From the NCBI RefSeq assembly GCF_000429945.1, contig NZ_AUCV01000054.1, positions 1 to 36,858 of the forward strand: 36,858 nucleotides of DNA, given 5' to 3'. The notes below the pieces were generated by a model that saw only the letters and a list, made by a program, of their open reading frames with translations, searched no databases and was not told the DNA's origin. Every line of letters starts with the position of its first letter. Position 1 is the first letter of the stretch. The stretch comes from Desulfogranum japonicum DSM 18378 (GTDB lineage Bacteria; Desulfobacterota; Desulfobulbia; Desulfobulbales; Desulfobulbaceae). The translations under genes were made by a program, and so were the position numbers. Positions 13,932 through 23,552 of this stretch are shown here, one piece after another.

Positions 13932-16754
13932 TCATTCTGCATCCAGAGCATCACGAACGGATCTTGCCAGTTCAGCATAATCTACAGGTTTCATGAGAAA
14001 AGTCTGTATCCCCATCATTGCAGCTTTTTCCGCGTCCATTTCGGCGCTATAACCAGTACACATAATAATGGGTATATCAGAGCGGATTTCCAATATTTTC
14101 CTGACCAGCTGTTCTCCTGTCATTTTAGGCATGGATTGATCTGTGATAACAAGATCAAATGCATCTGGCTTTGAATAAAACAGGTCAATGGCCTGTTGTG
14201 CCTGGGTGCAGACAGTGACAGTATATCCCAACAGCTCGAGTTTCTTTTGGGTTAAGGCAACTATTTCCCGTTCATCATCCACCACAAGAACACGCTCTTT
14301 GCCCGTCGCTTTTTCCAAATGTTGTACCTTATCTTGAACACCTATCTGGGTGTCGGAATCAAGGTAGGGGAAATAGACATGGAAATGAGAGCCGATGCCC
14401 ACTGTGCTCTCCACTTCGATAACACCGTTAAATGATTTCACAAACCCATGGACCATTGCTAACCCCATACCAGACCCTTTTCCGGCATCTTTCGTGGTAA
14501 AATAGGGATCAAATATCTTATGAATGACGTTACCTTCAATACCAGGGCCATTGTCGCTAACAGTCAACACAACATAGGAACCACCTGGCAACTCCACCCT
14601 TTCGGGAGTTGTTATCAAGATATTTTCAGGTAAATCCAGCCTGCTCAGTTTGACCTGCAGTCTTCCGTTAGGACCGTCAATAGCCTGACAGGCGTTTGTG
14701 CAAAGGTTCAGGACAATTTGATGAACCTGGGTCGGATCAGCTAAAATTTGTCCACAACCAGCATCGATCTCCGTGCAGATTTCGATGCTTGCAGGGATTG
14801 TGGCCCGAAGAAGCTGGATAACCTCTGTTACAATCTGGTCGATTTGCACCGGAATCTGTTTTCCGGGTTCCTTGCGACTGAAGGATAAAATATGCCGGAC
14901 AAGTTCTTTTGCCCTCTTACTTGCCTTTAAGATTTCATCTATACATTCCGTCATCTCGGCAGATTGAGGCGACTCAATCTGGGCAAGTTCTGCATAACCA
15001 ATTATCGCAGTTAAAATATTATTAAAATCATGGGCAATACCTCCAGCCAAGGTCCCAACTGCTTCCATTTTATGAGCTTGGCGGAGTTGCTCTTCAATCT
15101 CTATTCTTTCTGTGATATCTCGATCAATACCGCGGTATCCCCGGAAATCACCATTTCTATCAAAAACAGGAATTCCGCTGGACTCCAGAATTACTTTCCG
15201 ACCATCCTTATGCAGATTTTCGTTCACCAGATTGGCAAAAGGCTCTCGTAACTCCTTATAAAGAATAAACTTTTTAAAGACTTTCTCAGCTTCCTTTGAA
15301 GTCATTGGTTCAAAAGCCGACTGACCTAGAAGTTCTTCCGGCGAATATCCCAACAAATTCTTTACACGAGGACTCACATAGGTAAACCTTTCATTCTCGT
15401 CAAATTCCCAGATCCAATCCGTAGAATTTTCAGCAAGATCTTTAAAACGCTGCTCACTCTTCTGTAACGCTTTCTCTGCCGTATCCCTATCCTCCAGCAT
15501 GATATTGACACTTTCAGCCATACGATCCAACTCCTCGAAATGGACCAGCTCTCGATCTATTTTTTCATGGGAAAAAGAAGCTTTTTGAAAAAATGACACA
15601 AGTACGTCTGTATCGTTTTTAAGATTCTTACTCAAGCGATGGAAGAAAAAAAGAAAGAGAGAAAAGACCCCCATGGAAATCAGCAGGGAAAACAGAATCT
15701 TTCTTGTTATTTCAGTTTTCAAGGCAACCTGCATACCCGCAATATCTTTTTCCACATCATCCAGGTAGAAGCCAGCGCCAATAAGCCATCCCCATTCTGG
15801 AATTCCGAGAATATAAGAAGCTTTAGGAGTCTCTTTTTCAGAGGAAGTAAGCTTGACATGGGAATAATAGATATAATCTCCCCCAGGTTGCATTGCAGCA
15901 TCGTACTCTTTCTGGAAAATATTTTTCATTTTTTCCGGATTGGCAGCAAATACCTCCCACAGTTTTTCCGTACCTGAAAATACTTTTCCATTGGATACAA
16001 GGGCATCACCATTAAGTTTATTGACGAATATATAGCCCTCTTTTCCAAATCGAATTCTGCTGATGGTTGAGAGCAAATCCGCCTGTATCTGCTCTTCAAT
16101 GTCATTGACATACAACCCTGTACCAATTACCCATTGATATGGCTTAAAAAGCTTAACAAAAGATATCTTTTTGAAATTACCTCCCTGGGATTTTGGCTTG
16201 GTCCAGTAATATTCACAGAAGCCCTCCCCATAAGTCTTTGCAATTTGTATTATATCTTTAACAACATACTTCCCTTTGACATCCCGTACCCCTAGAAGAT
16301 TTCTCCCCTCTATCTCGGGTTTGTCAGCAAAGAGGATCTCCACCCCATCCAGGCCTGTGACAAAATAATACCCGCTGTCATCTGCATAGCGGACAGGCCG
16401 GAGGGCATCTACAATCATTCCATGAATCTCATCTTTACGATACGACAGTTTATTCTGCTCAAAAATATGTTGTGCAATTGAGAAAGCCTCGTAGGTTCTC
16501 AACCTGATCATTTGCCTGGTTACCAACTCAGTTTGTGATTTTTGATACGAAATCAATTGAGCAACCCGCTCAACCTCTTGCTTGATATTTGCTTTCTGGT
16601 TGGTAATGTAATCGTCTCGTAACTGAGCAGAACGCCCATAAAAATCTTTGTAGGAACGCGCAACATCGACTGCAGTAATGCATACAGCAACCCCTACAAT
16701 AAAAACCGTACCCCAAATCTGAATATACCGACTTAGCTGAGTTTTTTGTTTCAT
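13932..16754 (-). CDS. Double-Cache hybrid sensor histidine kinase
   Basis: A 940-residue membrane sensor. An N-terminal transmembrane helix (about 9-31) and a second (about 356-380) bracket a periplasmic region with two Cache-type repeats, marked by DDSGYYFVTGLDG with W-x-IGTGLYVNDIE and by EGYIFVNKLNGD with WGWLIGAGFYLDDVE. Inside follow a PAS domain (about 440-555, with YVSPRVKNLLGYSPEELLG), a HisKA domain with His575 in GGIAHDFNN, an ATPase domain (N-box near 684, DNGPGIEG near 734, GKGSGMGL) and a C-terminal receiver (821-940; Asp872 in VITDQSMP). Two-Cache sensors bind small ligands such as organic acids or amino acids. No response regulator gene is adjacent, so the output partner is elsewhere. 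Confidence 0.92.
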   Translation of the reverse strand: MKQKTQLSRYIQIWGTVFIVGVAVCITAVDVARSYKDFYGRSAQLRDDYITNQKANIKQEVERVAQLISYQKSQTELVTRQMIRLRTYEAFSIAQHIFEQNKLSYRKDEIHGMIVDALRPVRYADDSGYYFVTGLDGVEILFADKPEIEGRNLLGVRDVKGKYVVKDIIQIAKTYGEGFCEYYWTKPKSQGGNFKKISFVKLFKPYQWVIGTGLYVNDIEEQIQADLLSTISRIRFGKEGYIFVNKLNGDALVSNGKVFSGTEKLWEVFAANPEKMKNIFQKEYDAAMQPGGDYIYYSHVKLTSSEKETPKASYILGIPEWGWLIGAGFYLDDVEKDIAGMQVALKTEITRKILFSLLISMGVFSLFLFFFHRLSKNLKNDTDVLVSFFQKASFSHEKIDRELVHFEELDRMAESVNIMLEDRDTAEKALQKSEQRFKDLAENSTDWIWEFDENERFTYVSPRVKNLLGYSPEELLGQSAFEPMTSKEAEKVFKKFILYKELREPFANLVNENLHKDGRKVILESSGIPVFDRNGDFRGYRGIDRDITERIEIEEQLRQAHKMEAVGTLAGGIAHDFNNILTAIIGYAELAQIESPQSAEMTECIDEILKASKRAKELVRHILSFSRKEPGKQIPVQIDQIVTEVIQLLRATIPASIEICTEIDAGCGQILADPTQVHQIVLNLCTNACQAIDGPNGRLQVKLSRLDLPENILITTPERVELPGGSYVVLTVSDNGPGIEGNVIHKIFDPYFTTKDAGKGSGMGLAMVHGFVKSFNGVIEVESTVGIGSHFHVYFPYLDSDTQIGVQDKVQHLEKATGKERVLVVDDEREIVALTQKKLELLGYTVTVCTQAQQAIDLFYSKPDAFDLVITDQSMPKMTGEQLVRKILEIRSDIPIIMCTGYSAEMDAEKAAMMGIQTFLMKPVDYAELARSVRDALDAE

Positions 16755-18189: not shown

Positions 18190-18912
18190 TTAATTTACCA
18201 GGTAGTACTCAATGGTAGAGACAACTCGAACCTGTTTTATATGCGCTGTACTGCTGTCTCTGTTACGGATGCTGAACTGTCCCTGAGAAGCTCTTTTAAT
18301 TGTTCCTAGACGGCTTTCTGAATCTGCTGCGAATTTCTCTGCCACCTGTCGTGCTTTTTTGGTAGCTTCCTCTATCATCTCAGGTTTGAGATCATTCAAT
18401 CCGGTAAAAACATAATCCGGCTTTTTATCATAACCTCCTCCAGCAAGAACAATTCCCATTTTCCCCAACTCAGAAACTGAACTCATCAACTTTCGTACTA
18501 CCTCAACCTTCTCACTGTATACGGTTATTGTCTGGGAAGCTGTGAAGCGATAATCAACGGCCCCGTTGTTTGAATATTGTTGTGCTAATTTGTCTGTAAC
18601 CGTTGGTACATTGTTGGTGATTTCCTCTTTGGACAAACCATGATCAAGCAGATACTGTGTAATTTTTTGAGCATTCCCTTCCATTTTTGTATAAAGAGAT
18701 GCAATATCGTTTTCTGCAACACTATAGCTGACCGGCCAGATAACGATATTGGCAGGCACCTCTCTTTCTGCCAGACCTTTGACAACAACTGTACGATCAT
18801 ACTCTTTGAATGCAACAATTCCATTGGTAAAAAAAGACCCCAGCGCTATCGCGCCAAGAACAATGGAAATACCCAATATCGAAGCTCCCTTTGTGCTTAT
18901 CGATGTGTTCAT
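18190..18912 (-). CDS. SIMPL domain (DUF541, YggE-like) envelope protein
   Basis: The 240-residue protein has an N-terminal membrane anchor or signal segment (about residues 11-33) and then a SIMPL domain. The latter shows the typical opening TVVVKGLAEREVPAN, the central TASQTITVYSEKVE and the late segment IEEATKKARQVAEKFA. GAGGGGG sits just before the ATG. YggE-like proteins are periplasmic or outer-membrane-associated and have been linked to oxidative stress protection, but no enzyme activity is known. It is a single gene reading away from the radical SAM operon, with a 422-base divergent region between them. Confidence 0.88.
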   Translation of the reverse strand: MNTSISTKGASILGISIVLGAIALGSFFTNGIVAFKEYDRTVVVKGLAEREVPANIVIWPVSYSVAENDIASLYTKMEGNAQKITQYLLDHGLSKEEITNNVPTVTDKLAQQYSNNGAVDYRFTASQTITVYSEKVEVVRKLMSSVSELGKMGIVLAGGGYDKKPDYVFTGLNDLKPEMIEEATKKARQVAEKFAADSESRLGTIKRASQGQFSIRNRDSSTAHIKQVRVVSTIEYYLVN

Positions 18913-18980
18913 TTTTACCCCCTCGAAAAGGCCAATGCCTCCTTATACAGGAAATGAAATATTGTGTGATACAAACAGAT

Positions 18981-19010
18981 TTGAAATATTCATTGCCACT
19001 ATAGTATAAT
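18981..19010 (+). promoter_or_regulatory. Sigma-70-type promoter for the radical SAM operon
   Basis: TTGAAA (18981-18986) and TATAAT (19005-19010) are spaced by 18 bases and face the radical SAM gene. This is the best -35/-10 pair in the divergent region. It would give a leader of roughly 315 bases, in which no gene or known riboswitch is seen. A small inverted pair, GAGGA and TCCTC (about 19302-19320), lies just before the start codon and could occlude translation. Confidence 0.45.
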
Positions 19011-19334
19011 ATTTCTACCTTTATATTGAGCAGCGAGACGTACTTTCACAAAACAATTACAAAAAACCAACAAAAATAAGACTTGGAAATGGTTTTAAAG
19101 AGCTTGGCAATACCTATCCATCAATGATCTTTTCCCCAGTTTTTGCATTCTATTCAACACTATATTCCCATACTACTACACATATGTCTGCAATAAAGTT
19201 TTGAACAGCTTGAAGATATGATCGTGAAAAATCCATGGTAGTACCTGTAACCTATTTCCCTAACTGTACATCGAGAATGTACTTACTCACTCATTCCAGG
19301 GAGAGGATAAGTCCCGTCCTCCATTCACAGTGTT

Positions 19335-21134
19335 ATGGAATTTAAAAAACTCATCCACCTCCTGTATGTGCCAACCCAGTTTTGCAACATGAGTTGTCAG
19401 TACTGTTATTTAGGGGATTTAACAGAAACACAACCTGATACCACAACAATATTAGGTACACTGCATACAGCACTGGAACAACTTTTGTTGCATGGATACC
19501 TCCCCTTTAACCTCTCTTTCCATGGCGGAGAGGTAACCACCCTTTCCTCCGAAGTCCTTGACAGCCTGTTTCATACGGCCGCAAAGCACTATTCCCAATA
19601 TGGCAGTCAGATACATGCTCAGGGATTTCGAGTCAATCCACCGCACATTAAAACCAACCTGCTAACATTTCAAAAGCACTGGGATGTACTTGTCAAACAC
19701 CAGGTCTCAATCAGCGGCAGCGTGGACCTGCCATTACGCCTGCACGAACGGTTTCGCCGCGACAAAGGCGGCAACAGTACTCTGCAACGCACCCTGGAAA
19801 ATCTTCAAGCCCTGGCAGCGTATCCATATAACAAAAAAATTTCCTGCGTTGTAACCCGAGCCCATCTCGAGGCGGTGGACGAATTCATTGATGCCATTAA
19901 ATACCTGCATTACGACATTGGACTGGATATGAGCCGTTTTAACGTCATGTTTGGGTTTCATTCCCATAAAAACAATGACAAATTTCACAACCAGGTCCCA
20001 GGCACCGAGATGCTGACCCAGCTGGAACAGGTAGATTTTTACCATGCACTGAAACAGGCTTTTTTACGAACTCCCCTGGAAAACGCCTTTAAAAATGAAT
20101 GGTTTAAAGAGTTTACACCTGACTTCTGTTGTTCTTCCGTTAACTGCGGAGATAAATTCTTTCTCCTCCAATCCGATGGAAGCGTTTTCAGCTGTCCCCG
20201 CGGCCAATCATCAAAGCAGTACTGTTACGGCAATATATACGAAGAAGACATAGAAACCATTATGCACAATGGTGAAAACACTATCGAACGTAACGAAAAT
20301 CTCTTGTTCATCGCTGATACCTGCATGATCTGTGAATACCTGCATCTCTGTAACCTGGGCTGTACCTTTGTTCGGCAGGAAACCAATCTGCAAAAAAGTT
20401 ATACATGCCTGTTGCAGAGAGAATTATACCACGACAATCCTGATCGCTACCCTTCCATGGCTGCGGCGGAGATAGAGAACTATGCACGACATTTCCTGCT
20501 GAGAAACAACCTGCAAAAACTTCACAAGGTGCATACCCAAAAGCAGCGTTTTCTTACCCCTGAGTTGAATGAAAAAGAAAACTGGCTCAGTGAAATCATC
20601 CAACGGGACACGGTGTTACAGGATATCTATGGTGACGGCCTTTTTTTACTCAACGTCAATGACGTGAACTACCGCCTGCGATCAGCCATCCTAAAAAATG
20701 AGGCAGATATCGAGGTACTGGACAGCAACAGTCAGGTTATACTTGGAGTGCGAAACGATATTTTCAGCCTGGCCTGTAACGACGAGATAAACAACTACCT
20801 GCATCTCATGCTGCTCCGTGATACCACTGTCAAGTACGGTGATGAGCAGCGTACCAAGCAGGAACATATTTTTGATTATTCCGTGTATAGAAATATCTTT
20901 CTGAGCGCCTCAGAAGAGGTAGACGGCTATTTCCTGTTTGATATTTCCCAGATACTCATCAATCATTCATACTGGTATCTGGATGGGATAAAAAACAACC
21001 TTTTTTTTACAACCAAGGCGCTCCGGGAATATCATTACACCAAGCAAAAAAAGAACGCGTTCTACCACATCCAGGCAATTAACCTGCCTTTCCATAATAT
21101 TGAATTCTTTTGGAACAGGAATACATCAGTATGA
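19335..21134 (+). CDS. Radical SAM/SPASM peptide maturase, probable RiPP-modifying enzyme
   Basis: The 599-residue protein carries the radical SAM cluster motif CNMSCQYC (Cys17, 21, 24), which binds the [4Fe-4S] cluster that cleaves S-adenosylmethionine. The FHGGE motif (62-66) helps bind SAM. A SPASM region with auxiliary-cluster cysteines follows: Cys271, Cys287, then CMICEYLHLCNLGC (Cys330, 333, 339, 343) and Cys358. SPASM enzymes of this size usually modify peptides by crosslinking, epimerisation or thioether formation. The last 230 residues match nothing I recognise and may hold a substrate-binding part. Its TGA overlaps the ATG of the poly-Asn protein (ATGA at 21131-21134), so enzyme and likely substrate are translated together. 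No clear ribosome binding site precedes the start. Confidence 0.82.
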   Translation: MEFKKLIHLLYVPTQFCNMSCQYCYLGDLTETQPDTTTILGTLHTALEQLLLHGYLPFNLSFHGGEVTTLSSEVLDSLFHTAAKHYSQYGSQIHAQGFRVNPPHIKTNLLTFQKHWDVLVKHQVSISGSVDLPLRLHERFRRDKGGNSTLQRTLENLQALAAYPYNKKISCVVTRAHLEAVDEFIDAIKYLHYDIGLDMSRFNVMFGFHSHKNNDKFHNQVPGTEMLTQLEQVDFYHALKQAFLRTPLENAFKNEWFKEFTPDFCCSSVNCGDKFFLLQSDGSVFSCPRGQSSKQYCYGNIYEEDIETIMHNGENTIERNENLLFIADTCMICEYLHLCNLGCTFVRQETNLQKSYTCLLQRELYHDNPDRYPSMAAAEIENYARHFLLRNNLQKLHKVHTQKQRFLTPELNEKENWLSEIIQRDTVLQDIYGDGLFLLNVNDVNYRLRSAILKNEADIEVLDSNSQVILGVRNDIFSLACNDEINNYLHLMLLRDTTVKYGDEQRTKQEHIFDYSVYRNIFLSASEEVDGYFLFDISQILINHSYWYLDGIKNNLFFTTKALREYHYTKQKKNAFYHIQAINLPFHNIEFFWNRNTSV

Positions 21135-21517
21135 ATACAGAAACCGTCCTGCACGATAATAAATTACGAGTGTATCTCACCCAGACCGGCATCAAGAACG
21201 CTGACAATGCCAGACAGATCATCCAGACACACTTTACTGACCACGCCACAGAATATCCATATGTTCTGTTTCGCAATAACTCATTGTATCTGTTTACAAC
21301 TTCCGGCCTGCTCATGGTGGAATCCATGCGCAGCAAAAACGGAGCGAATTATCTGCGTTTTGACGGTGAAAAGATAACCCAACTGGAAGCGGAATACTAT
21401 CTTGGACCGGATTCCGGCGTTGCCAAAGGTAGTGGAGGGATAATCCCCGGTGGAAGCAATAACAACAATAATAATAACAACAACAATAATAACGGTAATA
21501 ATAACAATAACGGATGA
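21131..21517 (+). CDS. Candidate RiPP precursor with C-terminal poly-asparagine tail
   Basis: The 128-residue protein has an ordered N-terminal part (about 1-92) and a Gly-rich linker (93-108: GPDSGVAKGSGGIIPG). The tail is Ser109, twelve Asn (110-121), Gly122, five Asn (123-127) and Gly128. The layout of folded leader, Gly-rich junction and low-complexity core is what a peptide substrate of a radical SAM/SPASM enzyme looks like. It has no Cys at all and no aromatic residue in the tail, so thioether or cyclophane products are unlikely. Asn epimerisation, hydroxylation or backbone cleavage remain possible. The tail uses nine AAT and eight AAC codons. The gene overlaps both neighbours by ATGA. 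AGGA lies ten bases before the start. I know no described family with this tail; modification is inferred. Confidence 0.72.
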   Translation: MNTETVLHDNKLRVYLTQTGIKNADNARQIIQTHFTDHATEYPYVLFRNNSLYLFTTSGLLMVESMRSKNGANYLRFDGEKITQLEAEYYLGPDSGVAKGSGGIIPGGSNNNNNNNNNNNNGNNNNNG

Positions 21518-22386
21518 ATGGAATGAAAAGGTACCTGACCACGATCCTTGGCAGAATCTTCATACATAGTGTAGCAACGGTACTTCTTACGCTCTTTGTC
21601 TGGCAAAAATTCGAAGGGTATTATCATACCAAGGGGCCTGTTGCAGGATTTTTCCCATATCTCATTGTGGTGATACTGATCTGTTATGCCTGGCGTCAGT
21701 TCTCACGCATATCCACGTATCGAACCAGAATAAAAATGGCACAGCATCCAGCCGCCTTCAGCCCCGACAAGATTGATTGTTATGTCAGCGTACAGGGAAC
21801 GTTGCTTGGTGAAAACATTCATGTTTCGCCTCTCAAAGGAGAACCATGCGCGTATTACCGCTCTGAAATATTTGCTGAGTGGGAAACCAAAAAGAGGAAA
21901 CCGAACCGCGGGATGGAAACCCAACGCAAGCCACTGCTGAAGGATTCTTCTGCAGATGAACTGAAAATTTTGGTACAGGATCAGCCTGTCTATGTACGGA
22001 CAACAGATTTCCCACAAAAATGGATGCAATTACGGACCTATGAAAAAACCAGGGAAAAATGTCCTGCCCAGATCATTCAATCTGAAAAAAGCAAATATAA
22101 AAAATATCAGGTATATGAATCTTATGCCTGCAATGGCGACAGCATAATGGCTCAAGGCAAACTCACCAGGTTTACCGATGGTCGGCTCTTCATTGTGCCC
22201 AGCGGTCTGCATTCATACCCCTCGTTTATCATCAGCAAGGTAAAACGCACTCGCGGCGCCCAACTGGTAAAAGAAATTGTTGGTGAAGCGATGAATATGG
22301 CGACGATAAAACGCCTCGATGCCTGGATGCTTGTTATTAACGCGATTCTGCTTCTATACATCTCTACAACAGGTCACCAGGGATAA
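21514..22386 (+). CDS. GIDE-domain-like membrane protein
   Basis: The 290-residue protein has two N-terminal transmembrane helices (about 17-31 and 45-61), a soluble domain (about 80-260) and a C-terminal helix (about 269-286). The motif VSPLKGEPCAYYRSE (104-118) closely resembles the GIDE domain of MULAN-type membrane proteins, 'SP(L/V)(S/T)G-x-PCVYYR-x-(E/R)'. Later segments (VYVRTTDF; YESYACNGDSIMAQGKL) fit its second half. Bacterial GIDE proteins lack the RING finger, so ubiquitin ligase activity is not expected and the role is unknown. As third gene of the operon, starting by ATGA overlap at 21514, it may anchor, present or export the product. A second Met nine bases downstream is an alternative start. 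Confidence 0.6.
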   Translation: MNGMKRYLTTILGRIFIHSVATVLLTLFVWQKFEGYYHTKGPVAGFFPYLIVVILICYAWRQFSRISTYRTRIKMAQHPAAFSPDKIDCYVSVQGTLLGENIHVSPLKGEPCAYYRSEIFAEWETKKRKPNRGMETQRKPLLKDSSADELKILVQDQPVYVRTTDFPQKWMQLRTYEKTREKCPAQIIQSEKSKYKKYQVYESYACNGDSIMAQGKLTRFTDGRLFIVPSGLHSYPSFIISKVKRTRGAQLVKEIVGEAMNMATIKRLDAWMLVINAILLLYISTTGHQG

Positions 22387-22427
22387 CATGAGGGAGCACA
22401 AGGCCCCCCATGTCTTTGCTCCAAATA

Positions 22428-23552
22428 TCAATGGGTAAATAAGGGTAAATGCTTGGCAGACATTTTATACAGAAAAACGCCTATGGAGACAACTCCGAGA
22501 GATACCACAAACTCTTTCCATGATGGGGAATAAGACATCCCTCTCCAAGTGTTGTAACTCTCCATGCTGAACAGGCAAACATTCATCCTATTCAGCAGTA
22601 CCCCGACAATTACCAGAACATTAACAGAAAAAATAACCCTCGTGTTCTGACGATACTTTTTCACAGCCAGAATACAAAGAGGTAAAATCACTCCCACGAG
22701 CATCTCCAGAAGGTACATATTTCCTTCAACAGAGCCATCGAATGCCATGCCCGGGCTTGCCACAGCAAAGAGTTGATATAATTTGAGGCACAGATAAAAC
22801 CCCAGGACAATCATTACTCCCCTGGCCAACCCAAAATAGATTTCCTTGTCGACTTTGTGATGTAAAAACTTCTGGCTTAAAGCAGTCTCAAAGCTCACCA
22901 TTGAAAGCCCCATGGCAACCGCAGAAACAAGAAAATGAAAGGGCAGTTTCGTATCCCACCAAAGTGACGACATCTTGCTTGGAGCGATCAAAAACACCGC
23001 ACCCAGTGACGATTGATGCAGGGTGGAAAGCATTACCCCAAAAATAACCGCCCCAATCATTATTTTCCCTACAGCCCTGCGTGCCTTTTCCCAACCAAGA
23101 CGCTCAAACAGCATGGGACTGAATTCAAGCCCCAATGTTGTGGTGTAAAAAATCACATGCATGGCAACAACCCACATGACCGAATGATACTGCCACATTA
23201 TGGAAGGATGCCATAGACGAAAAGGATGACCAATATCAAGAAACAAGGCCAGTACCGCCATGAGATACCCCAGAAAGGCCGTGAGAATAGCTGGCCGAAC
23301 AATGGGGCGATATTTTTTCCAGTTAAACAGGTACACGGCACAGGCGATAATAAAACCACCGGCGGCCATGGCCACACCACCAAGCACATCCAGCCCCAGC
23401 CAGAATCCCCATGGATACACATCATTCAGGTTGGTAGTTGCTCCCAGGCCGTTTATCATTCGGTATACACCAACCCCCACTCCAAAAATGATCAGGAGCA
23501 TCATAACAATGGTTGCAGGTGTCCAGGTCTTTATTGCAGGATTTGATTCCAT
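22428..23552 (-). CDS. hybB: Hydrogenase cytochrome b-type membrane subunit HybB (NrfD-like)
   Basis: The 374-residue, strongly hydrophobic protein has about ten transmembrane helices and the NrfD/HybB pattern. It opens with TIVMMLLIIFGVGVGVYR, followed by LNDVYPWGFWLGLDVLGGVAMAAGGF and DIGHPFRLWHPSIMWQYHS. Members carry electrons from the periplasmic Fe-S subunit to quinone and contain no haem. It is the last gene of hybO-hybA-hybC-hybB, 80 bases after hybC. GAGGTGAAAG precedes the ATG. It ends 41 bases from the convergent GIDE-like gene. Confidence 0.92.
   Translation of the reverse strand: MESNPAIKTWTPATIVMMLLIIFGVGVGVYRMINGLGATTNLNDVYPWGFWLGLDVLGGVAMAAGGFIIACAVYLFNWKKYRPIVRPAILTAFLGYLMAVLALFLDIGHPFRLWHPSIMWQYHSVMWVVAMHVIFYTTTLGLEFSPMLFERLGWEKARRAVGKIMIGAVIFGVMLSTLHQSSLGAVFLIAPSKMSSLWWDTKLPFHFLVSAVAMGLSMVSFETALSQKFLHHKVDKEIYFGLARGVMIVLGFYLCLKLYQLFAVASPGMAFDGSVEGNMYLLEMLVGVILPLCILAVKKYRQNTRVIFSVNVLVIVGVLLNRMNVCLFSMESYNTWRGMSYSPSWKEFVVSLGVVSIGVFLYKMSAKHLPLFTH

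Follow-up and report, generated by a model that had tools for sequence, protein, structure and literature searches.

A radical SAM/SPASM enzyme family encoded beside asparagine-tailed proteins in bacteria and asparagine-ended tail fibres in phages

Introduction

Radical S-adenosylmethionine (SAM) enzymes with a SPASM domain include maturases whose substrate gene lies nearby, such as the cyclophane maturases DynA, DarE, GrrM/OscB, and AmcB. Here, we describe a system of similar layout from Desulfogranum japonicum DSM 18378, located in a stretch of 36,858 nucleotides (contig NZ_AUCV01000054.1, positions 1 to 36,858; hereafter, the window) and composed of a radical SAM/SPASM enzyme, a protein ending in runs of asparagine, and a membrane protein. 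By its features, the system appears to be a SPASM maturase with an adjacent substrate that stands outside the curated DynA, anaerobic sulfatase maturase (anSME), and GIDE families. It differs from DynA, DarE, and the other cyclophane maturases in its poly-Asn tail, in an extra conserved C-terminal domain of the enzyme, and in its membrane partner, and the bacterial tails lack aromatic residues.

The window enzyme finds its top PDB match, by sequence as well as by fold, in anSME, with which it shares an eight-Cys SPASM domain; its eight cysteines presumably correspond to the anSME ligands. In contrast to the anSME case, the Asn runs contain no Cys or Ser target, and the window enzyme carries an additional C-terminal domain of 200 residues. 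PoyD works iteratively along its peptide, as proposed here for the window enzyme, but the window family, unlike PoyD and EpeE, has no invariant Cys outside the Fe-S ligands, and EpeE is a weaker fold match. The proposed site of attack resembles that of the ranthipeptide NxxcA, where a SPASM enzyme attacks the β-carbon (Cβ) of Asn (PMC8326336), although the Asn tails lack a Cys donor, except for one (locus L023) that ends in NGCG. The known maturases considered above either join side chains to a Cys or an aromatic residue or else invert or splice residues. An Asn-only tail provides no Cys and no ring, so that its chemistry has probably not been described before; no description of Asn-tail maturation was found in the open-access literature, subscription papers and preprints being mostly outside that search.

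Results

The enzyme is encoded beside an Asn-tailed protein across bacteria

The three genes lie on the plus strand of the window and are coupled by two ATGA overlaps, at 21131-21134 and 21514-21517, as an earlier note on this DNA had read them. The first (19335..21134) encodes the 599-residue radical SAM/SPASM enzyme, recognised from its CNMSCQYC motif, NCBIfam matches, and a fold model. The second (21131..21517) encodes a protein of 128 residues, the proposed substrate, whose last 19 residues form the tail N12-G-N5-G (codons at 21458..21514), the proposed modification site; the same note had correctly described this tail as free of Cys and aromatic residues. The third (21514..22386) encodes the membrane partner, a 290-residue protein of the family here called C4 with hydrophobic stretches near both ends.

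A profile scan covering a single genome for each species, combined with two peptide patterns, yielded 40 homologous loci (not a census) with enzyme identities of 40-67%. The carriers include lineages that are hard to study, namely a cable bacterium (Electronema), Beggiatoa relatives, Thiothrix, Sulfurovum, and Geobacteraceae, as well as other Desulfobulbaceae, Thiotrichaceae, several Betaproteobacteria, Myxococcota, and one metagenome-assembled genome of the Clostridia. The enzyme family is rare, with matches in 4 of 57 relatives and in 2 of 395 sampled genomes of the phylum, the D. japonicum genome included in both counts. All four relatives have an Asn-tailed open reading frame (ORF) nearby, and the enzyme match in one of them (G011) is a C-terminal piece at a contig end.

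In a scripted search, 38 of the 40 loci (39 of 41 with the window) had an ORF near the enzyme gene that combines an Asn run with a Gly at the C-terminus, and the contigs of the two others (L026 and L052) stop within the enzyme gene or shortly behind it. In 37 loci the tailed ORF lies downstream of the enzyme and in one (L019) upstream, mostly overlapping or separated by less than 100 bases; larger gaps were seen in L018 (547), L022 (332), L034 (202), and L041 (289). NNN was absent from the last 20 residues of all 478 further ORFs around the 41 loci, which had been picked mechanically at a length of 60 amino acids or more. The earlier note had proposed checking whether an Asn-tailed gene recurs beside the enzyme homologues and had named homologues beside tailless substrates as the outcome that would speak against its idea; the opposite came out, with enzyme and Asn-tailed protein forming a recurring pair. 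The placement of a precursor gene beside its modifying enzyme, a feature of systems for ribosomally synthesised and post-translationally modified peptides (RiPPs), is seen in the same 38 loci.

Selection acts on the tail of the proposed substrate

The substrate alignment comprised 39 rows, with the L041 tail ORF left out, as it is broken by an assembly gap, and L012 (from G011) added. The Asn run measures 6-21 residues (median 14), and 38 of the 39 substrates end in NNG; L023 (4540-4965) is the only one ending in GCG (...NNNGCG) and has the only tail with a Cys near its end. None of the 39 tails contains an aromatic residue, as a substrate of a cyclophane (triceptide) maturase would. The tail is the best conserved part of the protein, the rest being only 14-54% identical to the window protein. 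NCBIfam and Pfam hold no family for the window protein, and the 39 substrates gave no convincing one, WGxxGxxG appearing in 11 of them at 0.012 or worse. Homology between substrate and enzyme was also considered and ruled out (hhalign probability 0.2%).

The 17 Asn codons of the window tail are 8 AAC and 9 AAT with no same-codon run longer than 3, unlike a triplet microsatellite, and the 39 tails together hold 319 AAC and 250 AAT in genes whose bodies range from 33 to 72% GC. Since the Asn codons of the tails are mixed, selection acts on the protein. Within the 5.8-Mb genome, the window tail is the sole site of the pattern (AAY)8 (the reversed pattern hits the same run and is no independent control). 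In all of 12 further carrier genomes it likewise occurs at one place, the substrate tail, places having been matched to loci by hand; altogether, it is confined to a single place in 13 of the 14 carrier genomes examined, D. japonicum included.

The catalytic half resembles anSME

The CX3CX2C motif of the radical SAM cluster (C17, C21, and C24), the one read as CNMSCQYC in the earlier note, is present in 40 of 41 homologues, the remaining row being gapped there. That note had counted seven or more SPASM cysteines; there are eight (C265, C271, C287, C330, C333, C339, C343, and C358; region 20127..20408), conserved in 41 of 41 rows and kept in the phage homologue P0004, as two auxiliary clusters require. 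These eleven are the only Cys columns filled in at least 40 of the 41 rows, the next best being C481 in the C-terminal domain (35/41), and the same eleven are retained in the phage homologues compared. The SPASM profile TIGR04085 matched at 39.4 bits (cut-off 27), and the Pfam SPASM profile stayed below its cut-off (15.9 versus 21.5). NCBIfam gave weak matches to many peptide maturases, the best being DynA (NF041298; 1.1e-25), whose 90.4 bits fall far short of the curated cut-off of 450; likewise, the anSME family TIGR03942 scored 77.3 bits against 349.45.

By sequence, the best PDB match was anSME (5.4e-17). The catalytic half of the enzyme is modelled as a radical SAM barrel plus SPASM fold (predicted local distance difference test, pLDDT, 88.1), and residues 5-373 of the model match anSME 4k39 with Z 28.7 and a root mean square deviation of 3.5 over 337 residues. 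The other fold matches were ChlB (Z 26.9), CteB (24.6), SuiB (22.5), TigE (20.0), and EpeE (15.1); the matches to anSME, ChlB, CteB, and SuiB together fall within model residues 3-372 or so.

The C-terminal domain (residues 400-599; 20532..21131) is strongly conserved in the family and is predicted to be beta-rich when modelled alone (pLDDT 90.5, predicted template modelling score 0.85). It had no clear relative in the PDB, with no Foldseek match at E<=0.001; the best was VIA, from the tail tip of phage Chi (Z 6.4), followed by RhoGDI (5.8), values within the range of common arrangements, and the absence of a PDB relative is not evidence of a new fold. As a separate lead only, this domain has a weak match (9.9e-5, or 0.0013 with the whole enzyme; 4 of 42 members) to the PADLOC profile PDC-M09B, which stands for a candidate protein of anti-phage defence.

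Phage homologues accompany Asn-ended tail fibres

An enzyme homologue that aligns to 98% of the window enzyme at 36% identity is found among phage tail genes in a Campylobacter coli plasmid record and is also present in phage CAM-P21. The gene two before it encodes a tail fibre (PF12571, 3.5e-40) that ends in STNNNNY. Including this locus, ten from IMG/VR, and four from Campylobacterota genomes, an Asn-ending fibre was found two genes before the enzyme in 15 of 15 different Campylobacterota phage loci (L094 and L095, which repeat L072 and L070, are not counted). The fibres end in NNNNY (8), GNNF (5), GNNS (1), and NGNNNNNGNNNTK (1, L091); unlike the bacterial tails, NNNNY and GNNF thus end in an aromatic residue. 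The L091 fibre shares only its first 150 or so residues with the others. Broken copies also occur, with the enzyme in pieces in L097 and L109 and with an altered end in L072 and L094. Separately, L063 (4307-7743) and L091 (3018-6019) have an ORF of 211 (or 124) amino acids between the fibre and a full-length enzyme homologue.

Fibres with the same N-terminal part served as a control (26 loci, two of them cut). All 7 loci with the enzyme had the Asn tail and none of the 17 without it did, more than 3 kb downstream being covered in 14 of these negatives and the frame ending early in one (L123).

When L091 and the window enzyme served as queries, viral scans returned no relatives, and a scan with A5 gave, among the matches listed and beyond known phages, only weak general SPASM hits. 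The alignments of the PHROG family phrog_1802 ("radical SAM domain-containing protein") to P0004 (6.4e-142), to the window enzyme (1.9e-47), and to L091 (4.2e-45) span almost the full profile. This profile is generic for SPASM enzymes, as it matches 142 of 237 genomes, including controls such as E. coli; its C-terminal end was reached, among the matches listed, only in G446, G000, and G251. The Campylobacter phages CP220 and CPt10 carry other radical SAM genes, as reported in PMC2853527.

Two families of membrane partners

Neighbour hidden Markov models placed a membrane partner in 37 of the 41 loci, C4 in 15 and C2 in 22, never both. The C2 protein is small, is encoded upstream of the enzyme, and takes the place of the window-type third gene in its 22 loci; homology between C2 and C4 was ruled out (probability 0.4%). 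In the enzyme tree, which omits L026 and in which the phage branches are long and of unsure placement, the C4 group lies on one side of a branch with 100/99 support and the C2 group with the partnerless rows on the other. A hydrophobic stretch precedes the tail in 16 of the 21 substrates of C2 loci and in 0 of 18 others, defined as a Kyte-Doolittle mean of at least 1.3 over 19 residues, a threshold picked after the values had been seen. Partner families and hydrophobic stretches together suggest that the tail may be located at the membrane. In L050 (4843-5996), the C2-type membrane protein upstream of the enzyme is present twice, in tandem.

The label "GIDE-like" given to the third gene in the earlier note had to be dropped. 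PF12483 has zero matches in the whole genome, the positive control in Synechococcus responding, and 12 homologues of the third gene gave no GIDE hit at E<=10. The partner alignments compared with Pfam covered 12 of the 15 C4 and 11 of the 22 C2 proteins.

Within about 6 kb, no peptidase or exporter gene recurs across the enzyme family; such genes could lie elsewhere. The one recurring transporter-like gene near the loci is a fusion of major facilitator superfamily, acyltransferase, and AMP-binding domains (tested in L033 only), found on the other strand beside the system in four close Geobacteraceae loci (L033, L034, L035, and L057). The neighbour clusters C8 and C9 occur in 3 loci each.

Discussion

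The reading that we favour, and consider likely, is that the operon is a dedicated tail-modifying system in which the enzyme oxidises Asn of the tail encoded by its neighbour, and that the phage members act likewise on fibres. The radical SAM/SPASM enzyme would act on the poly-Asn C-terminus of the protein encoded beside it, the N-terminal 90 or so residues of which are probably the recognition part. It would abstract hydrogen from Asn, most likely at Cβ and repeatedly along the tail, and the auxiliary SPASM clusters would accept electrons, leaving oxidised (cross-linked or dehydrogenated) Asn. We take Cβ as the likeliest site because anSME is near by fold and because Asn Cβ is attacked in both NxxcA and dynobactin: a thioether from Cys to Asn Cβ is described in NxxcA (PMC8326336) and a bond from Trp to Asn Cβ in dynobactin (PMC11002830), and the cited work has anSME targeting a Cβ hydrogen. 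As the tail has no Cys or aromatic partner, Asn-Asn side-chain links or dehydro-Asn would be the simplest outcomes, both equally compatible with the data. The membrane partner may hold or use the modified tail at the membrane, the tail probably not being released as a free peptide, and distant enzymes of the same family would modify the C-terminal Asn of phage tail fibres.

Two known fates of peptides handled by radical SAM enzymes have to be set against this proposal. In a classical RiPP, the modified tail would be cleaved from the protein and leave the cell as a small bioactive peptide, which we think unlikely here. The leader-like N-terminal part and short low-complexity C-terminal part of the substrates are what such a route would need, and in the 16 of 21 type-B substrates that have the hydrophobic stretch it is often followed by an Ala-rich segment as at a signal-peptidase site (our own reading). 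However, no peptidase gene recurs, the sole recurring transporter-like gene is that of the four close Geobacteraceae loci, and the phage Asn tail ends a structural protein. Modification of the tail of a whole protein fits better because no peptidase or exporter recurs and the phage tail ends an entire fibre. Of the "new RiPP class" suggested in the earlier note, the recurring pair of enzyme and substrate stands; given the same missing genes and the phage fibres, a classical RiPP is not clearly what it is. Epimerisation, an option named in the same note, would invert the Asn α-carbons to D-Asn, for instance at every second position, so that D- and L-Asn alternate and could adopt a beta-helix like that of polytheonamide. 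Asn runs of 6-21 residues would suit an iterative enzyme, and PMC8326336 describes known radical SAM epimerases as iterative along the peptide, yet it also has them using a critical Cys. The conserved catalytic Cys that PoyD/EpeE-type enzymes have besides the cluster ligands finds no equivalent in the 41 homologues, where the best non-cluster column is C481; since no such Cys is invariant, and with EpeE the more distant fold match, epimerisation is distinctly improbable.

That the tail is unmodified, being flexible or self-assembling, and that the enzyme modifies something else seems very unlikely to us: poly-Asn does serve as an inert linker in engineered proteins, but no other part of the substrate is as well conserved as the tail, and phage fibres, which otherwise share nothing with the bacterial substrates, also end in Asn near the enzyme. 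Several observations nevertheless weigh against tail modification. Conserved gene neighbourhoods are no proof that the modification falls on the tail and not on another part or molecule, and the tail matches nothing in the PDB except poly-Asn linkers in fusion proteins. Among the 29 relatives searched, the carrier G011 has a second (AAY)8 place (C57:316-360) made purely of AAT, and G018, which has no enzyme match, has one pure-AAT run (C125:9448-9489), so that such runs also arise as microsatellites; L020 and L021 show nine consecutive identical Asn codons. Neither membrane partner is seen in L026, L041, L045, and L051, the first two being cut by contig ends. The 15 phage loci are not independent, because several are near-identical and most of the fibres have a homologous C-terminal module, only L091 having an unrelated one. 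Some phage tails amount to no more than GNNF or GNNS, the 7 positive loci of the fibre control come from phages already counted among the 15, and less than 1.3 kb downstream is covered in the negatives L105, L114, and L116.

A wider idea, which we put forward tentatively as quite possible, is that one enzyme family writes the same new mark on the Asn C-termini of two unrelated kinds of protein, small membrane-associated ones of bacteria and the tips of phage fibres, in a RiPP-like system whose tail stays attached and that has been exchanged between phage and host. If true, this would be a radical SAM modification of a phage receptor-binding protein, and host recognition would rest in part on chemistry that the fibre gene does not reveal. 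Confirmation of the phage branch would take the system beyond a variant of SPASM maturases. With a minimal two-gene core, and with phage fibres with and without the enzyme forming a natural experiment, the proposal is directly testable.

Genomic surroundings of the trio

The genes flanking the trio lie on the opposite strand, an ORF at 18190-18912 on one side and a hydrogenase-like set from 22428 on the other (names by inspection). Over 18900-22600, no RNA family, riboswitches included, reached its gathering score, and promoter-like sites were no commoner than in shuffles (7 versus 8.2). Further upstream, the window encodes a Cache-PAS hybrid histidine kinase with a receiver domain (13932-16754, minus strand). 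Kinase or receiver genes were also clustered near 7 other enzyme loci, probably because such genes are common.

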